Under the pieces are notes generated by a model that was given only the letters and a program-made list of their open reading frames with translations, ran no database searches and was not told where the DNA came from. A stretch of DNA of 64,000 bases, taken from a bacterium. GTDB taxonomy: Bacteria > Acidobacteriota > Polarisedimenticolia > Polarisedimenticolales > Polarisedimenticolaceae. The position numbers and the translations under genes were made by a program. This document shows, one piece after another, positions 3,001 to 17,163 of this stretch. The stretch spans positions 248,001 through 312,000 of the forward strand of contig JAAELQ010000116.1 in the NCBI GenBank assembly GCA_024226515.1, in the 5' to 3' direction. Positions within the stretch are counted from its first letter, which is position 1. The number at the start of each line of letters is the position of its first letter.

Positions 3001-4778
3001 AGCCCGCTCTCGTTTCCTGCCTGGTCCGTGGCCGTTACCGCGTAGTAGAACGTGCCCTCGCTCGGGGGCGTGGCCGACGTCTCGACGTTGACGATTCCGG
3101 TCTGCAGCAACGTGGCTTCACCGGTCGTGGAGAACGGCGCGGTGGCCTCGTACAGGCTGTAGCTCGCGACGTCCGGCGAACTCGGTGCGATCCAGCTGAA
3201 CCGCTTGAGCCCGTCGGGAAGTTCCTGGGCGTTGAGGAACGGGGGCGGGTCTGGTGGGCCGGTATCCACGGTGACCAACACCTCCGGCGTGGGCGGGCTG
3301 GCACCCACGGAGTCGGACGCGCTGGCGCGGATCGGGTTCTGTCCCTCCTGCAGGCCGACCGTTAGTGACCAGCCTCCGGCGGGATTGGGCGCCACACGAT
3401 CCACAACGGAACCGTCGAGCAGCACCGAGACCAGGGTGCCCGGCTCGCCGGTTCCGATCACATCGACGCTGTTGACGGCGATTAGCGTAGATCCGGTCGG
3501 TGACGTGATCGCGGGCGTCGGCGGCGGAGCCAACGCCACGGTCACGCTGCGGTCTTCGCGAGACTCGCGACCCGCGGAGTCATGGGCGATGACGCTCAGC
3601 CCGTGCGGACCTTCGGCAAGTACACGCACGTCCCAATCGAACGTGTAGTTGCTCGTCGTGTCGGTGAACTGCAGCATATCGTCCACGAGGAACTCGACGC
3701 GGTCGATTCCGGAGGCATCCGTGGCGGTCGCGGAGACGACGAGCGGTCGGGACAGGACGGCGCCCCCGGCGGGCTCGAGGACCTCCAGCGTCGGCGCGCT
3801 GACGTCGAGGCTCATCAGGGCGTTCAACACCGCGGTGTTGCCCGTGGCTGCCTGCACCTGAGCGTAGACCGTCTTCGGACCGTCCCCCTCGGATAACGTG
3901 AACGAGAGGCGGTTCGTGACGGGATCGAACGGCACGCCCGGAAACGCAATGCTCTCGCTCAGCCGCACCGAGGTCGCCGTACGAGCCGACAAGGCAAACT
4001 CGACTTGCCGTTGCAACGCGAGGGATCCGCCGATCGGCTCGAACGACATGCCGAACAGCGGGATCACGTCGGAGAACGGCGTGTAGTCCACGCCGTCGCT
4101 GACCGAGTTGCCCTGCCCCCCAGGGTTGAATAGCCCGCCGCTCGCGGTGTCGTCGCTGTCGTCGAGTGGCCCGCTCGGATGCCCCCACCATACGCCCGAG
4201 GCAAGAGCGGTCTGGCTCGGGTCCTCGCTGAGTCCGCCCCAGCTCGCGTTGCGCTCGATCAGCGAAAGCGACACCGACGCCGTTGCGCCGGGCGCCCAGC
4301 GCACGCCGACATCGTTGTCCGAGACGATCAGCCGGACCAGTGTGGACGTCGACCCCGTGGTGGCTCCGATGCCGGCATTCGCGCTGTGGCGCACCGTCAG
4401 CCCGTCGATCGTCACGGACGTGCCACGCAGGGTGAACGCATCCACACCGCCGCCTCCGCCGAACAGGACGGTCAATCCGTCCAGTTGAGCGCTCGACGAA
4501 CGCTCGAGCCACACGCCGCGCCAGTCGCCGGCGGCGGGGCTCGACGGCGCCACCCCGGTCTGGCCGGCGTGCGAGTCGTCGTTCAGGCTCGTGAACACGA
4601 CCTCGTCTTCGACGACGATCCCGTCGCGCACGACCAGTTCGCCGTCGACGTCGAACTTGACGACGACGTCACGCGCCAGCTCCAGCCCCTCGCCCGATGC
4701 CACGCCGCTCGACGCGAGCAGCGTGAGCAGCAGGGCCGGAACCCACGCCCGGGCGCGTCGTTGCGTCCGCGCGCTCAT
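1..4778 (-). CDS. Giant secreted beta-helix/Ig-like/FN3 repeat protein (partial, C-terminus off the window)
   Basis: The frame is open from the ATG at 4778 to the left edge, giving at least 1,592 residues. A hydrophobic signal peptide lies at about residues 10-28. Residues of about 30-330 read like a right-handed parallel beta-helix, with short valine/asparagine-rich turns such as IDGLTVRHSANAGIG. Ig-like bacterial modules follow. FN3-like modules recur with the phrase YAV-A-D-AGN-S near residues 580, 880 and 975, and more beta-sandwich repeats continue to the edge. The start codon overlaps the upstream stop as ATGA, so translation is coupled to the dockerin gene. The protein is probably exported and surface-associated, either adhesive or structural. 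No enzyme motif is visible and the ligand is unknown. Whether the missing C-terminus carries a sorting signal cannot be seen. Confidence 0.85.
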   Translation of the reverse strand, partial: MSARTQRRARAWVPALLLTLLASSGVASGEGLELARDVVVKFDVDGELVVRDGIVVEDEVVFTSLNDDSHAGQTGVAPSSPAAGDWRGVWLERSSSAQLDGLTVLFGGGGGVDAFTLRGTSVTIDGLTVRHSANAGIGATTGSTSTLVRLIVSDNDVGVRWAPGATASVSLSLIERNASWGGLSEDPSQTALASGVWWGHPSGPLDDSDDTASGGLFNPGGQGNSVSDGVDYTPFSDVIPLFGMSFEPIGGSLALQRQVEFALSARTATSVRLSESIAFPGVPFDPVTNRLSFTLSEGDGPKTVYAQVQAATGNTAVLNALMSLDVSAPTLEVLEPAGGAVLSRPLVVSATATDASGIDRVEFLVDDMLQFTDTTSNYTFDWDVRVLAEGPHGLSVIAHDSAGRESREDRSVTVALAPPPTPAITSPTGSTLIAVNSVDVIGTGEPGTLVSVLLDGSVVDRVAPNPAGGWSLTVGLQEGQNPIRASASDSVGASPPTPEVLVTVDTGPPDPPPFLNAQELPDGLKRFSWIAPSSPDVASYSLYEATAPFSTTGEATLLQTGIVNVETSATPPSEGTFYYAVTATDQAGNESGLSERVQLDVDLTQPTASLAASPDGLVGPGSVALTLVTSEETNAQPFLSVTPAESTPTPIDLVPTGAPLTWSSTFDVTPDTPSGPVAFSFSARDVALNRGSQITVAPALTVDTEGPRGTLQLTPAQSVLGPGDFTVDLTLDEPAAMTPSLRFSPPAGGPIDIALTGSATTWQGLLTIEASLGDGAAAFELDAEDGFGNVASGPPDGIDVSLDTTAPDAPQNLLAGVRSAGEVELTWAVVIDAATYSVFRVPGGQPFPPVAEPITAGLLSAAYVDLPPADGEWSYAVSATDAPGNESVLSSAADGASDRTPPGDPSGMTLVLEGDAVRADWSPDAGSPGDTFLLYRATAPITSVVGLEPVQTGLLTPTALDAPPSDGNFHYAVVAGDSAGNLSNPATAGPIAFDQGSPRITITGVEDGDILNQIVTIEFSAEDFSLDTLEATLDAVPFASGGTESNEGDHVLVVTATDSSGNSSQQTVGFTLDLTAPEISIEGVADGVAYDVGVTPVVEVSDVRLDTTTITLNGQPFASGTPVTTDDAYTLVVTAEDLAGNSSVESVSFMLDTPPPPVESVSIDLPDGSVPLLSWTPRPEPDVVGYLVERDAISLTPTPQALTTLTDATFDPFGSQVYRVFAVDGAGQIGAPRSVTLSPVSLGLTAQPPVLSRRYLDAIDVEVENRSNETLNGLSLRLVLRNGATEISTTVVDGSQPLPAGETLTLTGVVSCGAGGEATRVLDLELTMSSTPGTSVRVLRSETLAVVEPPAPIQIFNDPLVLGTTGRLKIKLFNHGTANLQALTSQSGGPSPDVEVFLKDGDGNVLASRKLQQTGSGLINTADRSFTNIAGGSSFLTTNLELPIPSTAPETLFAEAVVGRTHSDLLGFTPDVVGPELRATQAVSTGAPAYLADAAPDRTVYDQGEAVLITGRAFDPVSGAAAPDVPVKIGVHTRGFDRFFFADTDSNGDFSLTFQPVSGEAGAYSIWATHPTVIERASQATFDILGLRFEPR

Positions 4779-5791
4779 GGAAGAAGCCTCGATCCGACGA
4801 GAGCCTGCGCCAGCGCTAGCGCGTCGCGGATGTCCTGGTGCGAATCGAAAGTCACGTCGGCGCAGACACGGCACGGCAGGTCGCCGGCCAGACCGACGAC
4901 ATGGTCCCGGATCAACTCCGGATCGGCGGACTCGACCAGGCCGTCGGCGTTTGCGTCCCCGAGCCGGCCGTCGCACGCCCCCGCGGGCGATTCGGGGCAC
5001 GGCGCGCCGTCACGCACTTCGTTCAAATCCGCATCTGCGGGAACCACTCGGGCGTGAACCGTCGAGAATCCGTCCGGGCCGCCGACGACGATCGCGGAGA
5101 GTTGCTCGCTGCCGTCGCCCGATAGATCGAGCGATTCGTGAGTCCCGCGATCGTACAAGTTATTCAGGTCGAACAAGACCAGGTCGGTGGGCGTGGCCGG
5201 GTTCGCGTCGTCGTCGATCCCGTCGCCGACGAACGACGCAAGCGGCGACAGGGCGTCCGGGTGCCGTAGCAGAACCAGCGTTCCGGTCGTCGATGCCGCC
5301 GGGTCGACGCGCGCGATCCGGAGCCGAAGGAGATCGTTGCTGAACGGCACGGGGGCGCCGGGCCCCGCGCTGCGGGCGGTGCGACGCGCGGTGTGCACGC
5401 GCAGGGGGGCGTCCGGTGCCGACGTCGTCTCGCCCGTCTCGCTCGATGTCGTGTTCGTGAGAACGCAGTACTCCGTGTCCGGATGCAGCCCGCCGACCTG
5501 CACGAGCTGAACCCCACGCTCGGCCGCGGCCGGACCCACAGCGGGATCGCCGGTGGCCGTCGGATGAACGTTGACCCGGGCGTCGAGCACCTCGATCAGG
5601 CAGGCCGGGCCCTCGAACACTGTTGCGTCCGGAGTGGCCGGAAGGTCGGAGATCCACACGATGCGGAACGACCGTGGGGTCACGTCCCCGACGTTGAAGA
5701 AGCGTACTTCGGGCGGCCCCGCCCACGTTGCCGCGGACGCCGTCAGAACCGCCACGGCGGCGACTCGGAGCGCTCGGCCGATCCGCGTCAC
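4775..5791 (-). CDS. Secreted protein with C-terminal type-I-like dockerin
   Basis: 338 residues with an N-terminal signal peptide (about 1-24), an FN3-like domain (about 25-130) and a second beta-rich stretch. The C-terminal 65 residues contain two dockerin-style calcium loops. The first is DANADGLVESAD. The second is DVTFDSHQDIRD. Both have acidic residues at loop positions 1, 5 and 12, and a Cys pair (CRVC) lies between them. Dockerins bind cohesin domains, and the immediately upstream gene encodes three cohesin-like domains, so the two are likely partners. The gene overlaps its neighbours on both sides by ATGA (4775-4778 and 5788-5791), indicating a tightly coupled operon. The N-terminal part shows no catalytic signature, so this is not an obvious cellulosome enzyme. 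Confidence 0.85.
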   Translation of the reverse strand: MTRIGRALRVAAVAVLTASAATWAGPPEVRFFNVGDVTPRSFRIVWISDLPATPDATVFEGPACLIEVLDARVNVHPTATGDPAVGPAAAERGVQLVQVGGLHPDTEYCVLTNTTSSETGETTSAPDAPLRVHTARRTARSAGPGAPVPFSNDLLRLRIARVDPAASTTGTLVLLRHPDALSPLASFVGDGIDDDANPATPTDLVLFDLNNLYDRGTHESLDLSGDGSEQLSAIVVGGPDGFSTVHARVVPADADLNEVRDGAPCPESPAGACDGRLGDANADGLVESADPELIRDHVVGLAGDLPCRVCADVTFDSHQDIRDALALAQALVGSRLLP

Positions 5792-8694
5792 GGTGCGACC
5801 TCCAACGTGGACGGTGCGTGACTGAACGGTAAGTCGTCCAGGTCCGTGCCGATCAAGTCGATCGGTTCGAGCTCGATGGAGACGGATTCGCCGTTACCGG
5901 GGAGCAGCTCGAACTCGATACGCGCGAGACTCACGATGCCGGTCGGCGTGGCCATGCCGGCGTTCTGGAACGCGGCGAAGGCCGTGCCGCCGGATGCGAA
6001 CGTCGCCGCGTCGGCGGCCGGCGGTGCCAGGAACTCGGGAGTCACGCCGCCGTCGATCGAGACGACGCGCAGGGCCGCGGGATCGTAGAGGACACGCATC
6101 ACGTACGCTCCGACCGCGGCCGATCCGCTGTCGAGCACGACTTCGCCGACGAATGTCGCGCCGGGGTCGATCTCGCCGCACGGGAGGTCGATGCGCAGAT
6201 TGCCCGGTGGCAGGACATCGAGCGTCGTGTGGGCCGTCAGTCCCGCGATTGTCGCTGTTACGAGGACCGTTCCTGGGGACAGCGTCTGTACCAGACCCTG
6301 ATCGTCGACAGTGGCGATCGTCTCGTCGTCGCTGGACCAGTCGACGGCATGGGTCACATTGTCGAACGTGCCGTTGGTCAACTCGGCGATCGCACGCAAC
6401 TGAACGCACTCTCCGGCAAGGCGCGTTGCCGAGGTCGGCTCGATCGCGAGAGCGACCGGAACGGTGTCCTCGCTTCCGACTCCGCTCGCGAGCAGCGCGC
6501 CCGCTCCCGCGGAGCTGCCGACGTCGACACGGGCACCGGTCGGGCCCGCCTCGAGCGGCGAGAAGCGCAGCGTCAACGTCAGGTCCGCTCCCGCAGGGAT
6601 CGCGACCGGGAAAGTCGGAAGCCCCACGAGCTGGAACGCCGCGTGGCTGCTCTCGTTCAGCACGGCGTCGTCGATCGTCAGCGGGCCGGGGCCGGGATTG
6701 CGGACCAGGAACGTACGATCGAGGAATTGACCGATCGGAACTTCACCGAAGACAAGCGGGGTGGGGTCGAACGTCACGTGGTCGCAGACGTCGCCGACAC
6801 CGTCGCGGTCGGAATCGAACTGATCGTCGTTCGGCGCTTGCGGGCAGTTGTCGCACAGGTCGCCGAGCAAATCCCCGTCGGCGTTCGATTGCTGCGGATT
6901 CGAGATCGACGGGCAGTTGTCGGTTGCGTCGTCCGTGCCGTCGTTGTCGTCGTCAACGTCGCAGAGGTCGCCTGCCCCGTCGTCGTCGCTGTCCTCCTGG
7001 AAGCGGTTGAAATCGTTCGGGCAGTTGTCGCACGCGTCCCCGTGTGCATCGCCGTCGGTGTCTGACTGTCCGGGATTCGGGACGCCGGGACAGTTGTCAA
7101 GAGCCTCGAGCGTGTTGTCGCCGTCGGCGTCGGCGGTAGTGCCGGGACACGGGTCGCCGTTCGGAATCGGGTCTCCATCGCCGTTGCGGCCCAGCACCGA
7201 TTCCCCGCAGATCTCTCGCGCGACGAGGTAGTAGAGCGTCGTGCCGACGAGCGGCTGCGCCGGGTCGTCGACGACAGCCTCCGTCAGCGGGCCCCCGACA
7301 CAGGTGTGGTTGTAGGCAAAGCGCTCCGCCGCCCGGCGGTAGCCACGATACAAGCGGTACGGACCCGGATCGCCGCCGTCGTCCCATGTCAACGTCGCGG
7401 TCGCCGATGCCTTGGAGAGGGTCAGGCTGTTTCCTACCTCCGCGGGAGGAGCATTTGTCGGATCACTCGGCGCACAGTCGCACGGGTCGCCGATCCCGTC
7501 GGCGTCCAGATCGTCCTGTTGTGGATTGGCGAACTCCGGACAGTTGTCCGTGCAGTTGGCGATCGTGTCGCCATCGTCGTCGCCGTCGAAGAGATCGTCG
7601 ATCAATCCGTTACAGTCGTTGTCGATGCCGTCGCAGATCTCGGGTGCATCCGGGTTGACCGTCGGGACGGTGTCCCGACAGTCCCCGCCGCAGGACGTGA
7701 AGCCGTCCTGATCCAGGTCGAATCCCTCGTCGACCGAGCCGAAACCGTCTTCTCCCGGGCACTGGTTGTCCACGAGATCGCACAGCTCCGGCGCGCTCGG
7801 ATAGACGGCATCGTGGGTATCGACGCAATCGCCTCCGCACTCCGTCACTCCGTCTTCGTCTTCGTCGGCGCAGACCGTGAACAGCCCGTCGTCCAGCATG
7901 GTTCCGATCTGGCCCTCGTTGACACTGCCCTGCATCAGGTCGAGCGGGGTCTTGTCCCCGAGCTCGCCCACCACGCGGAATAAGACGCGCAGGATCGCGC
8001 CGTCTCCGCTGGGCGCGTCGCTGGCGAACAGCGCCACGTCCAGCAGGCCGGGGAGTGTCGCGTTGAACTCCAGACCGAACGCAGGCGTCAGTTCTGCGGT
8101 CGCGACGTCGATGACCTCCAGTACCAATGGGTTGTAGGCCAGCTCGATATCGACGCCGAGAAAACCGTCCGCCGGCAGGGCCAGGATCGGCACCCAGACG
8201 AGGTTGCCCGGCGCGCCGGTCGGATCGTCCGGCGCAACGAGCGTTGCCGTCCGGTCCACGATCGCGGCCGTGCCGTCGATCGTGACCGACGGCGTCTCGT
8301 TGACGTTGGCCTCGAGCCACGAGAGGGCAGTCGAGCCCGTCGCGATTCCGCGAAACACCACCCACGCGATGTCTCCCTCGACGTTCGCGGTTTCGGTCGC
8401 GTACAGCGAGATCCGAACTTCACCCACGACCTCCAGGTTGGTCGTCAAGACGAACTCGTCGGTCGCCTCGGTCGTGAATATTGCGGTCGGCTCGAGCAGC
8501 GAGGCGTCGTATGTGAACTCGAGATCGAACGCCAGCACGTCGTCGGTCGACGTGACGTGGATCGGCACGACGAGGTCGCCGCCCGGACCGGTCTCGACGC
8601 CCGCGGGTAGGCTGATCGTGGCTTGTGCGTTCGCGACGCCGACGGAAAGCGCGACTAGGAACATCGCGAGCGCTGTGGGTATCATGCGCATCAT
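5788..8694 (-). CDS. Multi-cohesin scaffold-like secreted protein with MopE-type and thrombospondin-3 repeats
   Basis: 968 residues. Order: signal peptide (1-23), cohesin-like domain (about 25-145), second cohesin-like domain (about 150-275), two Cys-rich putative metal-binding motifs of the MopE type (about 275-368, with CGGDC and CDGIDNDCNG), TSP3 calcium repeats (about 368-405), an FN3-like segment, a long TSP3 array rich in D-x-D-x-D-G and DNCP (about 505-640), an ASH/HYDIN-like beta-sandwich (about 640-740), a Big_2 domain (about 745-825) and a third cohesin-like domain (about 830-965). The start is supported by GGAG eight bases upstream and by a TATAGA hexamer at 8712-8717 on this strand. 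Cohesin identity rests on the alternating beta-strand pattern and on phrases such as LAFDLEFTYDASLLEP. Most likely a surface scaffold for the downstream dockerin protein. Confidence 0.85.
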   Translation of the reverse strand: MMRMIPTALAMFLVALSVGVANAQATISLPAGVETGPGGDLVVPIHVTSTDDVLAFDLEFTYDASLLEPTAIFTTEATDEFVLTTNLEVVGEVRISLYATETANVEGDIAWVVFRGIATGSTALSWLEANVNETPSVTIDGTAAIVDRTATLVAPDDPTGAPGNLVWVPILALPADGFLGVDIELAYNPLVLEVIDVATAELTPAFGLEFNATLPGLLDVALFASDAPSGDGAILRVLFRVVGELGDKTPLDLMQGSVNEGQIGTMLDDGLFTVCADEDEDGVTECGGDCVDTHDAVYPSAPELCDLVDNQCPGEDGFGSVDEGFDLDQDGFTSCGGDCRDTVPTVNPDAPEICDGIDNDCNGLIDDLFDGDDDGDTIANCTDNCPEFANPQQDDLDADGIGDPCDCAPSDPTNAPPAEVGNSLTLSKASATATLTWDDGGDPGPYRLYRGYRRAAERFAYNHTCVGGPLTEAVVDDPAQPLVGTTLYYLVAREICGESVLGRNGDGDPIPNGDPCPGTTADADGDNTLEALDNCPGVPNPGQSDTDGDAHGDACDNCPNDFNRFQEDSDDDGAGDLCDVDDDNDGTDDATDNCPSISNPQQSNADGDLLGDLCDNCPQAPNDDQFDSDRDGVGDVCDHVTFDPTPLVFGEVPIGQFLDRTFLVRNPGPGPLTIDDAVLNESSHAAFQLVGLPTFPVAIPAGADLTLTLRFSPLEAGPTGARVDVGSSAGAGALLASGVGSEDTVPVALAIEPTSATRLAGECVQLRAIAELTNGTFDNVTHAVDWSSDDETIATVDDQGLVQTLSPGTVLVTATIAGLTAHTTLDVLPPGNLRIDLPCGEIDPGATFVGEVVLDSGSAAVGAYVMRVLYDPAALRVVSIDGGVTPEFLAPPAADAATFASGGTAFAAFQNAGMATPTGIVSLARIEFELLPGNGESVSIELEPIDLIGTDLDDLPFSHAPSTLEVAP

Positions 8695-8976: not shown

Positions 8977-11697
8977 ATGTCCCAGTGTCCGAAGTGCGTC
9001 AGCGTGGTCCCGGCCGGTAGCCGGTTCTGCAACAGTTGCGGAACGCCGGTCGGCACGGTCTCCATGCGCACCGAGACCTCCATCCCCAGCGGAGCCACAC
9101 CGGTCGGCTCGACCGATGCGCCGGCGACCGGGGTGGGACGCCTGTCCACGGCCACCCCGGCCGACCCGCGATTCCTGCCCGGCAGCCTGCTCGACGAGCG
9201 CTACCGAATCGTCGGCCTGCTCGGCAAGGGCGGCATGGGCGAGGTGTATCGCGCAGACGACACCAAGCTCGGCCAGCCGGTGGCGCTGAAGTTCCTGCCC
9301 GCGGCGCTCGAGAGCGACCCCGATCGCATGGCGCGCTTCGTCAACGAGGTACGCGTCGCCCGTCAGGTCTCGCACCCCAACGTGTGCCGCGTCTACGACA
9401 TCGGTGAGATCGACGGGCGGCACTACATCTCGATGGAGTTCGTCGACGGCGAGGATCTGGCCTCGTTGCTGCGCCGCGTCGGGCGCGTGACGGGCGAGCG
9501 CGCAGTGCAGATCGCGCGGCAGATCTGCGCCGGCTTGGCCGCGGCGCACGCGCGTGGAGTGATCCACCGCGATCTCAAGCCGGGCAACATCATGATCGAC
9601 GGCCGCGGCGACGCGCGGCTGAGTGATTTCGGCCTCGCCGGCCTGGCCGACGGATTCGAGGGTGCCGAGATCCGCGTCGGCACGCCGGCCTACATGGCGC
9701 CCGAGCAGCTCGCCGGCAAGGAGGTCACGACCCGTAGCGACATCTACGCGCTGGGACTGGTGTTGTACGAGCTGTTCACCGGCGCGGCCGCGTTCAAGGC
9801 CGACACGGTCGAGGACCTCAAGCGCAAGCAACTCGACACGCGGCCGACGCCGGCGTCGGTCGTCCCCGACCTCGATCCGGCCGTCGAGAGCGTCGTCCTG
9901 CGTTGCCTGGACAGCGACCCCGAACAACGGCCGGAGACGGCGATGGCGGTCCTGGCGGCCCTCCCCGGCGGCGACCCGCTGGCCGCCGCGCTCGACGCGG
10001 GCGAGACGCCGTCACCCGAGATGGTGGCGCGCGCCGGCGTTCAGGGCGGACTGCGTCCGGCGTGGGTCGCTGTGGCGCTGGTGCTGTTCGTCGCCGCGAT
10101 CGTGGGCGGCCGGTTCCTGTCGTCCAGAGCGCACATCCTGGGGCACGTCGCGTTGCCCAAGGGCCCGCAGGTGCTGGCCTCGGAGGCGCGTGCGCTGACC
10201 GAACGCCTGGGCTACCCCGAGGCGCCGGTGGACCGCGAGTACGGCTTCTTCACCGACAGCCAGTACATGGAGTTCGTGGAGTCCGAGAACGACGGCCTCG
10301 ACCGCTGGAGCGCGCTGGGCAGCGTGCGGCCGTCGCCCATCCGCTTCTGGTACCGCGAGAGCCCGCGCCCACTGGTCCCCATCGGGCTCGGTGGCGGAGT
10401 CGGTACGGGCAACCCGCCGATGGCCCTGGCGGGCATGACCCGGATGTTCCTCGACCCCGACGGCCGGCTGACCGGCTTCCTGGCCGTCCCGCCCCAGTTC
10501 GATGAGAGCGTCCCACCCGAGAACGGGGAAAAACCGGCCGATTGGTCCGTCCTCTTCGCTGCGGCCGGCCTGACCCAGGTTGATTTCGAGTCCGTTGCGC
10601 CGCAGTGGAATCCGCTGGTCGACTGCGACGAGCGTGCGGCATGGGAGGGGCCGGCCCCCGACGATCCCCAGCGGACGCTGCGCGTCGAGGCCGGGGCCTA
10701 CCGCGGCCTTCCGGTCTATTTGATGATTGCCCCTCCCTGGCGCGAGGCGACACGGCAGGGGCCCGCACAGATCAGCACGGCGAACCAGGCATCGGCCATC
10801 ATCATCATGCTGCTGATCCTGGCGCTGTTGCTCGTCAGCGGCATCGTCGCGCGCCGCAACCTGCGACTGGGGCGAGGGGACTGGCGTGGCGCGTTTCGCA
10901 TGGCGTCCACGCTGTTCGTGTTGGCGATGACGACATGGTTGCTGACGGCGCATCACGTGAAGTCGACCGTGTCCGAGGTCGCCAAGCTCGGCCGCGCGGC
11001 CCAGGTGGCGTTGTTCATCTCGGCCATCGTCTGGGTCTTCTACCTGGCGCTCGAGCCCTACGTGCGGCGTATGTGGCCCCACGCGCTGGTCTCGTGGGCC
11101 AGGCTGCTGAGCGGGCGCGTGCGCGACCCACTGATCGGTCGCGACCTGGTCGTCGGAGGGCTGATCGGTTCGGCGATCTACCTGCTGGCGCTGCTGGCCA
11201 AGCTCGGGCCCGGATGGGCCGGCAGGACCCCGCCGCGTCCGCTGGAGTCCATCGCCGTGCTGCACGACGTGGGTACGGCGTTCAGCCTGCTGGCGGCGTT
11301 GCCGACCAACGCGCTGGCGGTGTCGATCGGATTGCTGTTGCTGGTGCTCCTGCTGCGCCTGGTGCTGCGACGCACATGGGCGGCCGTGGGGGCGGCGTTC
11401 GTGTTGATGGCCGGGCTGCAGATGCTGCAGAGCGCCAGCGTGGGCCTCGGGTTCGCGTTCTCCGTGGCGACCTGGGGGTTGATCCTGCTGGCCATGACGC
11501 GCTTCGGCCTGCTGGCGACGACTTTCAGCCTGTTCTTCGCCTACATGTGCCTGCAGACGCCCGCGGCGACCGACCTCTCGGTCTGGTACTCCGGGCGTGT
11601 GTTCGCGCTGCTGGCCGTCACGGCCGGGCTGTACTTCTACGGCGCTTACATCAGCCTCGGCTCCCGTTCCTTCTTCGAGGATCCGCTCGAGCGCTGA
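8977..11697 (+). CDS. Membrane Ser/Thr protein kinase with N-terminal zinc ribbon and polytopic C-terminus
   Basis: 906 residues. CPKC and CNSC at about 4-21 form a double-CxxC zinc ribbon. A Hanks-type kinase domain spans about 75-335. It has the glycine loop GKGGMGEVY, catalytic Lys105, HRDLKPGN at 197-204, DFG at 217-219 and APEQ in the activation segment. One membrane segment at about 361-380 is followed by a roughly 220-residue extracytoplasmic region, then about nine further membrane segments from residue 605 to the end. The kinase should phosphorylate Ser/Thr on cytoplasmic targets. The large external and membrane regions suggest sensing or transport-linked control, but their fold is not one I recognise. 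All key kinase residues are present, so it should be active. Confidence 0.93.
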   Translation: MSQCPKCVSVVPAGSRFCNSCGTPVGTVSMRTETSIPSGATPVGSTDAPATGVGRLSTATPADPRFLPGSLLDERYRIVGLLGKGGMGEVYRADDTKLGQPVALKFLPAALESDPDRMARFVNEVRVARQVSHPNVCRVYDIGEIDGRHYISMEFVDGEDLASLLRRVGRVTGERAVQIARQICAGLAAAHARGVIHRDLKPGNIMIDGRGDARLSDFGLAGLADGFEGAEIRVGTPAYMAPEQLAGKEVTTRSDIYALGLVLYELFTGAAAFKADTVEDLKRKQLDTRPTPASVVPDLDPAVESVVLRCLDSDPEQRPETAMAVLAALPGGDPLAAALDAGETPSPEMVARAGVQGGLRPAWVAVALVLFVAAIVGGRFLSSRAHILGHVALPKGPQVLASEARALTERLGYPEAPVDREYGFFTDSQYMEFVESENDGLDRWSALGSVRPSPIRFWYRESPRPLVPIGLGGGVGTGNPPMALAGMTRMFLDPDGRLTGFLAVPPQFDESVPPENGEKPADWSVLFAAAGLTQVDFESVAPQWNPLVDCDERAAWEGPAPDDPQRTLRVEAGAYRGLPVYLMIAPPWREATRQGPAQISTANQASAIIIMLLILALLLVSGIVARRNLRLGRGDWRGAFRMASTLFVLAMTTWLLTAHHVKSTVSEVAKLGRAAQVALFISAIVWVFYLALEPYVRRMWPHALVSWARLLSGRVRDPLIGRDLVVGGLIGSAIYLLALLAKLGPGWAGRTPPRPLESIAVLHDVGTAFSLLAALPTNALAVSIGLLLLVLLLRLVLRRTWAAVGAAFVLMAGLQMLQSASVGLGFAFSVATWGLILLAMTRFGLLATTFSLFFAYMCLQTPAATDLSVWYSGRVFALLAVTAGLYFYGAYISLGSRSFFEDPLER

Positions 11698-12252: not shown

Positions 12253-15090
12253 CTAGCTCGTCGCCTCGTCCAGCAACTGCCAGAACGAGCGGAACGACTG
12301 CCCGGTCGCCCGCGTCAGTCCGATCTCGCACGTGCGGCTGCTGCTGTAGTGCCCGCACTCGTCGCCGCGGTTCAGCTCCCGGGCGCTGTCGCGCGTCGCG
12401 GCGCGCGTGAGCTCCGGATGCATGAGCCCGCGGTCGCCGGCGAATCCGCAACAGCTCTCGGTCTGCGGCACGCGGCTCTCTTCGCTGCACGCGCCGATCA
12501 GGGCTTCGAGTTTGGAGGTCAGCTGCATGCGGCGCACCGAACAGGTCGCGTGCGCGACGCGAACGCCCGGTAGCCTGCGCGGCCGTAGCGCGGCCAGCAA
12601 GACGTCGTGCGCGAACTCGACGCCGTCCAGAACGGTCAGCGCCCCGTGGCGCGAACGCGATCCCGCGTCGAGGTCGGGTCCCGCGCACTTCAACGCCTGG
12701 GCGCAGGGGCTGGAGTCGATCAGCACCGGCAGTCGTCCGCCGTCGCTCCAGCGATGGAGGGCGTCGACCGTGCGGGTCGCCGCGACGCGCGAGGCGCGCC
12801 CGTAGCCCTTGGAGCCGAACGGCAACCCGCAGCAGTGCCCGGCCGCGTCGGGCGGGATCCACAGCCGCACGCCGGCCTTGCCCGCGACGCGCAGCACCGT
12901 GTCGGGCAGCGCGCCGGAGGCGGACGATTGCTCGGCCACGACACGCGAGACGCACGACGGCAGATAGATCGCGGCCGCGTCGCGTCGCGCCGCGCTCGTC
13001 GTACGGCGGGTCGCGGCGCGCGGCAACGCCCCGGCCCAGTCCGGGATCGAGCGTCCGAGCGCGCTGCGGGCCGCCCGAGCGACCGCCGCCAGGCCGTGTT
13101 GCCCCACGAGGAGCTCCGCGGCGCCCGCGGCGCGCAGGGCGAACCTGGCGCCGCGCTCGAGCAGCTCGAAACGCCCGGCGGCGACCGCGGTCAGCTCGCT
13201 CCGCGCCGCCGGGTGCCGCTCGCGCCGCAACCGCTTGACCAGCGCTCCGGTGTCGATTCCGACCGGGCAGCCGAGTGCACACAGCCCGTCGGCGGCGCAG
13301 GTCTCGATCGCCTCGTAAACGTAGTCCGACTCGAGCTCGCGCAGCACACCGCCGTCCGGGTCCTCGACGCGCAGGCGCGACATCTCGCGCCGCACCACGA
13401 TGCGCTGGCGTGGCGTCAGCGTCAGGTCGCGGCTGGGGCACAGCCGCTCGCAGAACCCGCACTCGATGCAACGATCGACCTCGGACTCGACCTCGGGCAG
13501 CTCCTTCAGGTGCGCCACGTGCGCGCGCGGGTCGTCGTTGAAGATCACGCCCGGATTGACGAGGCCGTCCGGATCGATCAGCCGCTTGATCCGCAGCATC
13601 GCCGCGTGCGCGCGATCTCCCCACTCGTACGCCAGGAACGGCGTCATGTTGCGCCCGGTGCCGTGCTCGGCCTTCAGCGCGCCGCCGTGCCGTCCCGCGA
13701 CCAGTCGAGCCAGCCTGCGCATGAAGCCGTCGTAGCGCTCCACGTCCGCCGCGTTGTCGAAGGCCTGCGTCAGCACGAAGTGCAGGTTTCCGTCCTTGGC
13801 GTGACCGAACAGGATCGCGTCGTCGTAGCCGTAGTCCGCGAACAGCCCCTGCAGCTCGGACACGCCGCGCGCAAGGCGATCCACCGGGAAGACGACGTCC
13901 TCGATGATGAACGACGTCCCCCGGCGCCGCATCGCGCCGACCGACGGGATCAACCCCTTGCGCACCCGCCACAGCAGCGCCTGACGCTCGGGGTCGCGAG
14001 TCAACTCGGGCGCGGCCGCCAGCGGTAGGGATTGCACCTGAACGCGGCAGGCGTCGATCGCCTGCTGCAACTCCGTCTCGTCCCTGCACTGGTACTCGAT
14101 CAGCAGCGCCGCGCCCTGCGCCGGGAGGTCGCGGATCGATCCGGGAAGGCCCGGCTGCGTCTCGACCGCGCTCAACGACGCACGGTCCATCAGCTCCAGC
14201 GCCCGCGCGCCCGACGCGCGCAGCGACTCGATCGACGCGCACGCGCGGGGCACGTCCTCGAAGAACAACAGTCCCGTATAGCGGCAAGGGTCGTCGGGGA
14301 CCGTGCGCAGCACGGCCTCGGAGATGAAGCCCAGCGTGCCCTCCGAGCCGATCATCAGGTGCGAGAGGATGTCGACGGGACGCTCGAAGTCCAGGAACGA
14401 GTTGAGCGAGTAGCCCATCGTGTTCTTCAGCGAGTACTTCCGCCGTATGCGTTGCGCGAGCGAGTCGTCGTGCTCGATGTTGCGTTTGAGCTCGAGCAGT
14501 CCCGCGACGATGTCCGGCGCCGCGCGGCTCAGGTCGGCGTCCGCCGTGGGGTACTCGGTATCCACGGTCGTTCCGTCGGGCAGGACGAAGCGCAGCGCGT
14601 CGAGCGTGCGATAGGCGTTCTGCGTCGTGCCGCAGCACATGCCGCTGGAGTTGTTGGCCAGGATGCCGCCGAGCATGCACGCGTCGATCGATGCCGGGTC
14701 GGGGCCGATCTTGCGGCGGAACGGGCGTAGCATGCGATTGACCGCACCGCCGATCACGCCCGGTTGCACGCGAACCTGCGCTCCGTCGTTCTCGACTTTC
14801 GCGTCGCGCCAGTGACGCGAGACGACGACGAGGATGCCGTCGGTGACGGCCTGACCGGAGAGGCTCGTGCCCGCGGCGCGGAACGTCAACGGAATGCGAC
14901 GCTGTCGACTGAAGCGAAACAGCGCGCGGATCTCGTCATCGTCACGCGGCATGACGACGACCCGCGGCACGAGTCGATAGACGCTGGCGTCGTTGGCCCA
15001 CGCGAGACGATCGATCGCGCGCGCATGCACACGGCGCTCGTCGAGAAGCTCTTTCAACGCGGATTCGATTTCGCGATCGCGGGGTTCCAT
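12253..15090 (-). CDS. FAD-linked 2-hydroxyacid dehydrogenase fused to a Fe-S/CCG electron-transfer module (YdiJ/Dld type)
   Basis: 945 residues from the ATG at 15090. A longer frame to 15210 exists, but the extra residues are non-conserved and a TATACA hexamer lies just upstream of 15090. A PCMH-type FAD-binding domain occupies about 45-260 (RAAGTSLSGQAVTDG, LGGILANNSSG). An FAD-oxidase C-terminal domain follows to about 520, with HAKDGNLHF. Two Fe-S clusters are indicated by CIECGFCERLCP (about 541) and CAADGLCALGCP (about 597). Two CCG domains (HCCG near 750, SCCG near 877) resemble the GlpC/HdrB cofactor module. The architecture matches E. coli YdiJ, which oxidises D-2-hydroxyglutarate or related D-hydroxyacids and passes electrons to the respiratory chain. 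The substrate is not set by sequence alone. Confidence 0.9.
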   Translation of the reverse strand: MEPRDREIESALKELLDERRVHARAIDRLAWANDASVYRLVPRVVVMPRDDDEIRALFRFSRQRRIPLTFRAAGTSLSGQAVTDGILVVVSRHWRDAKVENDGAQVRVQPGVIGGAVNRMLRPFRRKIGPDPASIDACMLGGILANNSSGMCCGTTQNAYRTLDALRFVLPDGTTVDTEYPTADADLSRAAPDIVAGLLELKRNIEHDDSLAQRIRRKYSLKNTMGYSLNSFLDFERPVDILSHLMIGSEGTLGFISEAVLRTVPDDPCRYTGLLFFEDVPRACASIESLRASGARALELMDRASLSAVETQPGLPGSIRDLPAQGAALLIEYQCRDETELQQAIDACRVQVQSLPLAAAPELTRDPERQALLWRVRKGLIPSVGAMRRRGTSFIIEDVVFPVDRLARGVSELQGLFADYGYDDAILFGHAKDGNLHFVLTQAFDNAADVERYDGFMRRLARLVAGRHGGALKAEHGTGRNMTPFLAYEWGDRAHAAMLRIKRLIDPDGLVNPGVIFNDDPRAHVAHLKELPEVESEVDRCIECGFCERLCPSRDLTLTPRQRIVVRREMSRLRVEDPDGGVLRELESDYVYEAIETCAADGLCALGCPVGIDTGALVKRLRRERHPAARSELTAVAAGRFELLERGARFALRAAGAAELLVGQHGLAAVARAARSALGRSIPDWAGALPRAATRRTTSAARRDAAAIYLPSCVSRVVAEQSSASGALPDTVLRVAGKAGVRLWIPPDAAGHCCGLPFGSKGYGRASRVAATRTVDALHRWSDGGRLPVLIDSSPCAQALKCAGPDLDAGSRSRHGALTVLDGVEFAHDVLLAALRPRRLPGVRVAHATCSVRRMQLTSKLEALIGACSEESRVPQTESCCGFAGDRGLMHPELTRAATRDSARELNRGDECGHYSSSRTCEIGLTRATGQSFRSFWQLLDEATS

Positions 15091-15213
15091 CGGCACGCGA
15101 GGCAGTGTATACTTGAGTTGGGTGGGACGTATCGCGGAGTCGACTGCCGCGATCTCTCGGGGTCGGGGTAACGGACCTCCACCGTATGGAGCCCGCGTCG
15201 TCCCACGCACTAG

Positions 15214-16347
15214 CTATTCTTCGGGCGATTCGTCCGCGTCGCTCTCGCTCTCGCTGACGGCGAAACGAACCTCTTCACGCGCGCCTTCCTTGTAGAGTTC
15301 CTCGATCGCGGTCTCGAATACGTACGAGCCGGGTTCGAGCGAGTTCTCCTCCACAGTGTCGAACACCGTCTGGCAACGCGTCTTGTTTCCCTCGTCGTCG
15401 AGCACTAGCGCCACCGGAGCCAGGTAGTCCGGCTCGTCACCCGCCCGGATCGCGCGCTTCACGGTTCGATCCGGGGCGTTGTTCGAGCGCACGAGGCAGG
15501 CCTTGTTCCTCGCGTACAGCGTGTCCGGCCGCTCGGTCTGCTGGACCAGCAGCGGCTCGAACGCCTCCCGCGCGCCGATCAGATCGCTGAGCCACGGCGC
15601 CGACGAGTCGTGCGCAGCGTCGCCGCTAGACTTGACGACGATGTTGTCGCCCGCGGGCCGGCCGAGAATCGAGTCGACCAGCATCAGCTCGCGGCGCGGG
15701 ACCTCGGGGATCCGGACCTCGAGCTCGATCGACGACGGGTCGGTTCCCTCGGGATCCGAGACGACCACGGAGATCGAGTATTTTCCCGGGGCCAGCGTGA
15801 TCGGCTCGAGGAACGTAAACCGGCGCCCGCCCGCGCGTTTCGCGCCCGGCGCGAGCGATACGCGCCGGTTGAACTTGTGCTGCACCAGATTGCCGTGCGT
15901 GACCACCGCGCCGAAATCGCGGATCGCCTCGTCGGCCTCGCCCTCCGCGAACTCCACCGGAAAACTGACCGCCAGCAACGTCTCCCAGCTCTTGGGACTC
16001 TTCGGGTGCAGCGGAAAGACGTGGCTGCGCACGATGCCGTTCTGGAACATCTCGGGCGCCAGGAACGCGGTGCGGATCATCGACTCGCGCTTGGCCGACG
16101 GCGAGCGGAACAGGTAGGACGACGGGTGCACGACGCGCAGCCCCGGGCGGCGCACCTTGAGAGAGACGTGGCGCGGGGTATCGTCGAGGCCGCTCCTGTC
16201 GTAGAAGCCGACTGCGTAGCGACAGCCCAGATCACGCTGCGCGCGGGCCAGCGCCAGCGACAGGTCGTTGGTGTAGCGCGTGAATCGGCCCCCCGTGTCC
16301 GAGGCGAGTCGTGCGAGCATCGGCGGACCGCCGGCGGATTCGCACTG
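15214..16347 (-). CDS. C-terminal portion of interrupted VWA-domain protein (TIGR03436-like)
   Basis: This frame continues directly, without a shift, from the gene at 16348-17163 after one TGA. It begins with nine codons and then an ATG at 16320, giving 368 residues if initiated there. The first 50 residues (LARLASDTGGRF, YTNDLSLAL, CRYAVGFYD) are the last strand and helix of a von Willebrand A fold, which are missing from the upstream piece. The remaining roughly 300 residues are beta-rich with no recognised catalytic motif and an acidic tail. No good ribosome-binding site precedes the ATG. The product is therefore probably made only as part of the full protein, or the gene is broken. Confidence 0.7.
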   Translation of the reverse strand, partial: QCESAGGPPMLARLASDTGGRFTRYTNDLSLALARAQRDLGCRYAVGFYDRSGLDDTPRHVSLKVRRPGLRVVHPSSYLFRSPSAKRESMIRTAFLAPEMFQNGIVRSHVFPLHPKSPKSWETLLAVSFPVEFAEGEADEAIRDFGAVVTHGNLVQHKFNRRVSLAPGAKRAGGRRFTFLEPITLAPGKYSISVVVSDPEGTDPSSIELEVRIPEVPRRELMLVDSILGRPAGDNIVVKSSGDAAHDSSAPWLSDLIGAREAFEPLLVQQTERPDTLYARNKACLVRSNNAPDRTVKRAIRAGDEPDYLAPVALVLDDEGNKTRCQTVFDTVEENSLEPGSYVFETAIEELYKEGAREEVRFAVSESESDADESPEE

Positions 16348-17163
16348 TCAGCCGCCGCCGGGCGTGGGTAGCCCGGCGCTGTCGAACGGCGTCAGCAGGC
16401 CCGCGGCGTGCACGGGATAGAACACGACCCTCGACGCCGCGGCGCGCGCGGAGAGCTCGGCGAACGGAGCGTCCCACTGGTCGGCGCTGCCGGGGATATT
16501 CGAGAACAGTACGACCCCTTTGGGGCCCGGCATCACGCCCAGTAGATCCACCAGCGCCTCGAGCGAGGCGAAGAAGCCCAACTCCGTCGTGTGCTCGAAC
16601 GACGGCTGCCACAGCGAGATGTCGTACTCCATGCGCTTCAGCGCCGCGAACGTCGTCTGCGGGTCGTCGTCGAAGTCCTGTTCGATGCGCAGCCCACCGG
16701 TCAGGGCCACGAGCATGACCTCGTCTCCGGGCTGCGTCACATGCCGGACCATGTCCCGCGCCATGACGAGCACCTCGGTCCGCGTCAACTGGTGCATGTG
16801 CGGGTAGTCGAACGCCAGCACGATGCGCCGGCCGTTTTCGGGCGCCGGCAATGCCTCTCTCCGCGCCACGCGCGAGACGGGCACCGGCTCGCCGAGGGAG
16901 CCGGCCGAGCAGTCGACGTCCAGCGTGTCGACCTCCACGGGGCGCCCCGCGACCCGGATCTCGAAGTCCTCCGCACCCAGACCGTCGACGGTCCGCCCGT
17001 CGGAGTCGAGCACCACCGCGTCGAGGATCACGAGGCGCACGCGGATCTCCTCGGTCACGTTCGTGCGCAGCGGGTCGGTCGGTTCCTCGGCGACGACCGC
17101 GACGGCTGCAACGAGCGCGGCGAGCAGCAGCACGACTCGATCGAGGATGCGGTCTCGGTTCAT
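16348..17163 (-). CDS. N-terminal portion of VWA-domain protein (TIGR03436-like), ended by in-frame TGA
   Basis: 271 residues. A signal peptide (about 8-26) is followed by the acidobacterial VWFA-type start: VRLVILDAVVLDSDGRTVDGL, then EDFEIRVAGRPV (quoted separately). VWA core strands follow: RIVLAFDYPHMHQ, DEVMLVALTGG, GVVLFSNIPGS and VVFYPVHAAGL. The usual MIDAS DxSxS is altered to DYPHM. The frame stops at TGA (16348-16350) inside the VWA domain, and the remainder continues in the same frame downstream. This family is exported and thought to mediate binding, but its role is unknown. Alternatives are a nonsense mutation, a base-calling error, or recoding. Confidence 0.75.
   Translation of the reverse strand: MNRDRILDRVVLLLAALVAAVAVVAEEPTDPLRTNVTEEIRVRLVILDAVVLDSDGRTVDGLGAEDFEIRVAGRPVEVDTLDVDCSAGSLGEPVPVSRVARREALPAPENGRRIVLAFDYPHMHQLTRTEVLVMARDMVRHVTQPGDEVMLVALTGGLRIEQDFDDDPQTTFAALKRMEYDISLWQPSFEHTTELGFFASLEALVDLLGVMPGPKGVVLFSNIPGSADQWDAPFAELSARAAASRVVFYPVHAAGLLTPFDSAGLPTPGGG

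Follow-up and report, generated by a model that had tools for sequence, protein, structure and literature searches.

The window, which is the whole 64,000-nucleotide stretch of acidobacterial DNA that we analyzed (GCA_024226515.1, contig JAAELQ010000116.1, positions 248,001 to 312,000), contains on its minus strand a frame of 650 codons that, in the ORF translation, extends from an ATG at 17163 to a TAG at 15214–15216. The sole internal stop of this frame (15214–17163) is a TGA at 16348–16350. It separates a first piece of 271 residues (16351–17163, minus strand), which contains most of a VWA domain and an N-terminal hydrophobic helix that by eye resembles an export signal, from a second piece of 377 codons (15217–16347, minus strand), which contains the end of the TIGR03436 region and a beta-rich C-terminal part. 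When the second piece is counted from its own start it is 368 residues long (15214–16320, minus strand), and what lies between the two pieces is the TGA and nine sense codons (Q C E S A G G P P); these boundaries and the shared frame had been given correctly in the preliminary description of the locus. The codon alignment additionally places a Cys codon, TGC (16342–16344, minus strand), two residues past the TGA. Read through the TGA, the whole VWA coding sequence (15214–17163, minus strand) would encode 649 residues, including one predicted selenocysteine (Sec) at residue 272, followed by the TAG.

Both pieces match a single NCBIfam model, TIGR03436, and do so in the right order, with model positions 5–225 in the first and 246–321 in the second. 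The read-through protein gives one match to this model, which scores 129.6 bits and exceeds the curated cut-off (81.25), while the separate pieces score 81.1 and 40.4 bits. GC3 is of the coding type in both (0.91 in the first and 0.88 in the second), and judged by sequence both pieces are coding. Long open frames by themselves mean little here because the DNA is GC-rich, and what lifts the finding above chance is that six further loci have a TGA in this very linker.

An AlphaFold2 model built from six sequences is of modest quality (mean pLDDT 59.5), and within this model residues 110–291 (16291–16836, minus strand) form a clear Rossmann-like VWA fold, with structure comparison giving Z-scores of up to 15.1 and an rmsd of 2.7 over 154 aligned residues (1sht). 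Foldseek matches to proteins other than VWA domains (transglutaminases and beta-glucuronidases, TM 0.12–0.16) were set aside as beta-sandwich resemblance, and a sequence search of the PDB with a profile returned nothing significant, its one match having an E-value of 0.25. The TGA falls within a flexible loop (residues 259–300; 16264–16389, minus strand) that connects strand 246–252 to helix 300–312 and in which nearly all residues have a pLDDT under 50. Loops after strands in VWA folds face the metal-binding side, and the loop that would carry Sec may therefore sit there in the modeled protein. The usual metal motif of VWA domains is DxSxS; the window protein reads DYPHM at this place, so that the site is probably not a standard metal site. 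A hydrophobic helix at residues 3–22 of the model, judged by eye to be a signal peptide, suggests that the protein is probably exported.

The gene neighborhood gives no functional lead, as no neighbor common to all compared stretches was found (the window, relatives G004, G002, G005, G010, G007 and G008, and G000:C40 from the window's own genome, G000). The exceptions are one other ORF pair common to the window and G010, and protein-kinase-like ORFs near four of the genes, such kinases being common in this phylum. The window's own protein-kinase-like ORF (8977–11697) has a start that by eye looks like a zinc ribbon, and ORFs resembling it occur close to the VWA genes of G002, G005 and G007. 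Directly downstream of the VWA gene is a large minus-strand ORF (12253–15210) with, by eye, the look of a GlcD-type FAD oxidase with an iron-sulphur domain. Two TGA-free VWA paralogues have neighbors of their own. In G003:C60 (L170, 4078–6613), the paralogue (4078–5997) stands beside a gene that by eye resembles a BCP-type peroxiredoxin (6003–6494), just beyond which is a tRNA-Sec gene (6520–6613). In the window's genome (G000:C172; L169, 3065–9014), the paralogue lies about 3 kb from a TGA-containing SelD gene, and the genes between the two resemble, on visual inspection, a 1-Cys peroxiredoxin and a membrane protein of the TerC type.

The TGA in homologous genes

When the second piece was used as a query against 100 relatives, matches were found in 57, and several of the top ones had open frames of just 377–410 residues. 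The short length of these frames is due to in-frame TGAs in the same linker, just past the VWA strand. In total, a linker TGA is present at seven loci in six genomes: the window, G002, G005, two copies in G004 (G004a and G004b), G010 and G007. Across these loci there are ten in-frame linker stops, all of which are TGA, with no TAA or TAG; by comparison, the terminal stops of the same seven genes are TAG in five and TGA in two (G002 and G004b). G004, which is assembled as one contig, carries two VWA copies in tandem (L103, G004:C1:2469000-2476000), each with two TGAs split by one Gly codon, and this contig matches CP011806.1 (Acidobacteria bacterium Mor1) in position.

With a full-length profile at an E-value of 1e-40, the 41 genomes of the class yielded the subfamily at 20 places, spread over 11 genomes, and seven of these places have the linker TGA. 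Searched with the full-length profile at 1e-60, with three candidates scored per genome, 10 of 396 genomes of the phylum contain it, and from these sequence searches it looks confined to this class at those thresholds. All nine aligned members match TIGR03436. Two strict peptide patterns, run over the genome contigs, picked up six loci, three of which are among the seven with the TGA. Several other candidates were opened and rejected. Among the TIGR03436 matches listed for 60 relatives, the sole row with an internal stop (G047:C19) has a TGA that is terminal, as are the TGAs flagged in G000:C40 and G000:C231 and the third TGA of G002:C8; in L034, L113 (G016:C112, flagged with three TGAs) and L114–L117, the TGAs are terminal or lie beyond a terminal stop.

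The recurrence bears directly on whether the window's TGA is a nonsense mutation that has made a pseudogene, or a base-calling or assembly error at one codon. A lone stop in an otherwise intact frame is what such a lesion or error would look like, and the assembly of the window's genome is fragmented (320 contigs) with an estimated contamination of 5.15%. The same-linker TGA at six other loci in five other genomes argues strongly against this explanation, as do the tandem copies with two TGAs each in the one-contig genome. Furthermore, in comparisons of the window with G002 and G005 the region past the TGA is conserved to much the same degree as the one that precedes it, which is not the behavior of a pseudogene: identity to the window past and before the TGA, respectively, is 48% and 50% for G002, and 39% and 41% for G005. 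The weakest comparison is with G007, which is 41% identical to the window in the N-terminal part and 31% in the C-terminal part. We consider a lesion or error extremely unlikely. Among the four options that had been listed for this codon, recoding is favored, while nonsense mutation and base-calling error are not supported, given the TGA at seven loci in six genomes.

In a tree of 18 sequences the TGA carriers do not form one clade and branch supports are weak; the TGA label requires three changes, a number as low being reached in 7 of 500 shuffles. This sequence-based pattern fits an old trait with losses, without demonstrating it.

A second explanation is that the TGA ends a first protein and that internal re-initiation makes a second. 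Start codons are available for this in some of the genes, with an in-frame ATG ten codons past the last TGA in the window and in G002, and an ATG immediately after the second TGA in G004a. In G005, the first start is a TTG at codon 14, and G004b, G010 and G007 have no in-frame ATG, GTG or TTG in the 59 codons past the last TGA, which excludes a restart for these three. Judged by eye, the 16 nt that precede the window's ATG contain nothing like a Shine-Dalgarno sequence, and the second product would lack an export signal. The structural model also places the break before helix 300–312. We therefore regard a split gene as extremely improbable. Homologues normally split at this point had been named as an observation that would refute an interrupted gene; taken literally, homologues do contain the TGA, but the three genes that lack a start within those 59 codons cannot be ordinary split genes.

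The linker motif and the downstream hairpin

The linker, which the preliminary description had set apart from a catalytic center, bears a short motif in which TGA and Cys codons, and hence putative Sec and Cys, interchange. With U denoting each TGA, the window reads UQC (GGG-U-QC), G002 reads UGU (PG-U-G-U), G005 reads UGL (PG-U-GL), G004a and G004b both read UGU (EG-U-G-U and GG-U-G-U, respectively), G010 reads CPGU (CPG-U) and G007 reads CGU (GCG-U-G). In the codon alignment, the first motif column is TGA in five of seven genes (the window, G002, G005, G004a and G004b) and Cys in G007, while the second is Cys in the window, TGA in G002, G004a, G004b and G007, and Leu in G005, which has no second Sec or Cys. 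G010 has a CxxU spacing and cannot be aligned to the two columns. The preliminary description had pointed to Trp, Arg or Cys as informative codons in homologues; Cys does occur, in G007, and neither Trp nor Arg was found in the motif columns of relatives. Of 13 TGA-free places 11 were examined, and one of these has a Cys in the linker (G008, NSCPG), with a further Cys just before the linker in G007:C9 (VDCRG). As Cys homologues are few, the classical support that they lend to a Sec assignment is thin.

Downstream of the TGA is a hairpin that we predict to be the core of a bacterial SECIS element (16321–16333, minus strand; CGGCG-GTC-CGCCG). It has a 5-bp stem and an apical GUC loop whose G lies 19 nt after the TGA, and in the window's own sequence an outer 6-bp stem (GUGCGA/UCGCAC) extends it to 16311–16345 (minus strand). 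The 5-bp stem and its loop are present exactly as first described. At that time the hairpin was played down because such stems are common in GC-rich DNA; by the comparisons that follow, it is a conserved, covarying hairpin at selenocysteine-type spacing. In all seven genes the stem has 4 bp or more and its loop of 3–5 nt contains GU, and the loop G lies 19–22 nt past the last TGA: the window, G002, G005 and G004b share a distance of 19 nt, G004a and G010 have 21 nt, and G007 has 22 nt. Under a background rule that permitted loops of 3–6 nt, 117 of the 4470 codon starts of these genes are followed by a GU-loop hairpin of at least 4 bp, a rate of 2.6% in which the true sites are counted. When the stem must be at least 5 bp, it is present in six of the seven genes, G007 having a 4-bp stem, against 56 of 4470 codon starts, and this stricter rule gives 1.7% over all positions on both strands of the window.

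To count pairs we used ungapped sequences registered on the loop, since MAFFT placed gaps inside the hairpin alignment; this register was hand-chosen and favors the structure. In it, stem pairs 2, 3, 4, 5 and 7 are paired in all seven genes with 4, 2, 2, 3 and 2 pair types, respectively, pairs 1 and 6 are paired in five of seven each, and pair 8 in four. Over the first six stem pairs, 38 of 42 cells pair. Sliding one arm lowers this to 13–22, and 14 of 5000 arm swaps reach the observed level; given the relatedness of the sequences and the hand-chosen register, these covariation figures serve as guides and not as probabilities. The folding energy of the window's hairpin is not unusual when compared to shuffled sequences (z = −0.47, with 61 of 200 shuffles folding as well), and none of the Rfam SECIS families matched, even at an E-value of 10. 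In the SelD genes of the same genomes, which provide an internal control, the hairpins nearest the TGA have loops that mostly lack GU, so the loop rule is not common to that control.

Selenocysteine machinery and probable decoding of the TGA

The genome of the window encodes SelA (530 bits), SelB (327 bits) and tRNA-Sec (70.8 bits), each above cut-off, and the three components whose presence had been put forward as a check on recoding are thus all found. ARAGORN identifies the tRNA as tRNA-SeC with anticodon tca. Additionally, SelD in this genome contains an in-frame TGA itself (ASGG-U-AGK), as it does within the G-U-A-x-K stretch in all nine genomes tested, the window's included; we take this TGA to be at the catalytic position. 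SelA, SelB, tRNA-Sec and SelD are all above cut-off in five of the six genomes that carry the linker TGA. In the remaining one, G010, which is 75% complete, SelA, tRNA-Sec and SelD are above cut-off and no SelB is, the best match (187.6 bits) probably being EF-Tu. SelA is above cut-off in 83 of the 100 relatives' genomes, and with machinery this common its presence is necessary for Sec decoding without being specific to the genes described here.

The TGA could also be read through with a standard amino acid by a near-cognate tRNA, or belong to a code in which TGA stands for Trp or Gly. UGA is the leakiest of the stop codons, which lends this explanation some weight. Against it, TGA also terminates genes in these genomes, for example in G002, G004b and two paralogues in the window's genome, and is therefore not a sense codon throughout. 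The motif columns hold no Trp or Arg, with Cys and TGA interchanging in them apart from one Leu, and both a covarying hairpin and the Sec machinery are present. We judge this reading very unlikely.

Taken together, the sequence comparisons leave us highly confident that the TGA at 16348–16350 is decoded as selenocysteine, and that the gene is intact and encodes one protein of 649 residues. In the mechanism that we propose, reading of this TGA as Sec would yield a single product, with the downstream covarying GU-loop hairpin acting as a SECIS element that recruits SelB, and the protein would then be exported. Sec and the Cys two residues on, or the Sec–Sec and Cys–Sec pairs of relatives, would form a selenenylsulfide or diselenide pair, located on the Gly-rich flexible loop of the VWA domain and outside the cytoplasm. 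We favor a redox-active or metal-binding site as the role of the Sec/Cys pair, at about even odds. More tentatively, and with doubts that outweigh our confidence, these proteins could constitute a new class of exported selenoprotein, a VWA domain whose flexible, Gly-rich loop bears a paired selenol motif (U-x-U, U-x-C or C-x-U). Outside the cytoplasm, the pair would then switch the binding face of the domain under redox or metal gating.

Relation to known selenoproteins

The candidate SECIS resembles that of E. coli fdhF, in which GU in the apical loop lies 19 nt past the UGA, the same spacing as in the window, G002, G005 and G004b. The protein encoded by fdhF, formate dehydrogenase H, is unrelated, and its Sec sits in a molybdenum active site, whereas here it would sit on a flexible loop of a VWA protein. 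Within TIGR03436 (acidobact_VWFA), which the whole read-through protein matches above cut-off, the genes described here differ by their TGA/Cys linker motif; in the flagged distant members that we opened, TGA is terminal.

Selenoproteins with UxC, CxU and CxxU motifs, such as thioredoxin-like Sec.1 and Sec.2, share the one- or two-residue spacing between Sec and Cys (PMC13188914). Compared to those that this review describes, the proteins in this study differ in their VWA fold, their Gly-rich linker and the UGU motif, in which two Sec would be one residue apart. Table 1 of the same 2026 review comprises 119 prokaryotic selenoprotein families and subfamilies, and this table includes no VWA or TIGR03436 family and no one-residue U-x-U motif; a term search of the review's main text found no occurrence of Willebrand, VWA or VWFA. 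The same terms were absent from three further papers, and among the listings and passages that our literature searches covered, nothing links VWA or TIGR03436 with selenoproteins. Within this literature and on the sequence evidence, the genes apparently represent an undescribed selenoprotein group inside TIGR03436, the acidobacterial VWA family. Recoding of UGA to Sec is itself well known, and what appear to be new are the VWA fold as its setting and the U-x-U motif.

Annotation that treats every TGA as a stop would label these genes as broken or split. If our reading is true, selenium use reaches a protein family that is widespread in Acidobacteriota, by way of two Sec separated by a single residue in a VWA fold instead of a thioredoxin-like one, and the motif may offer a first handle on the function of these VWA proteins.
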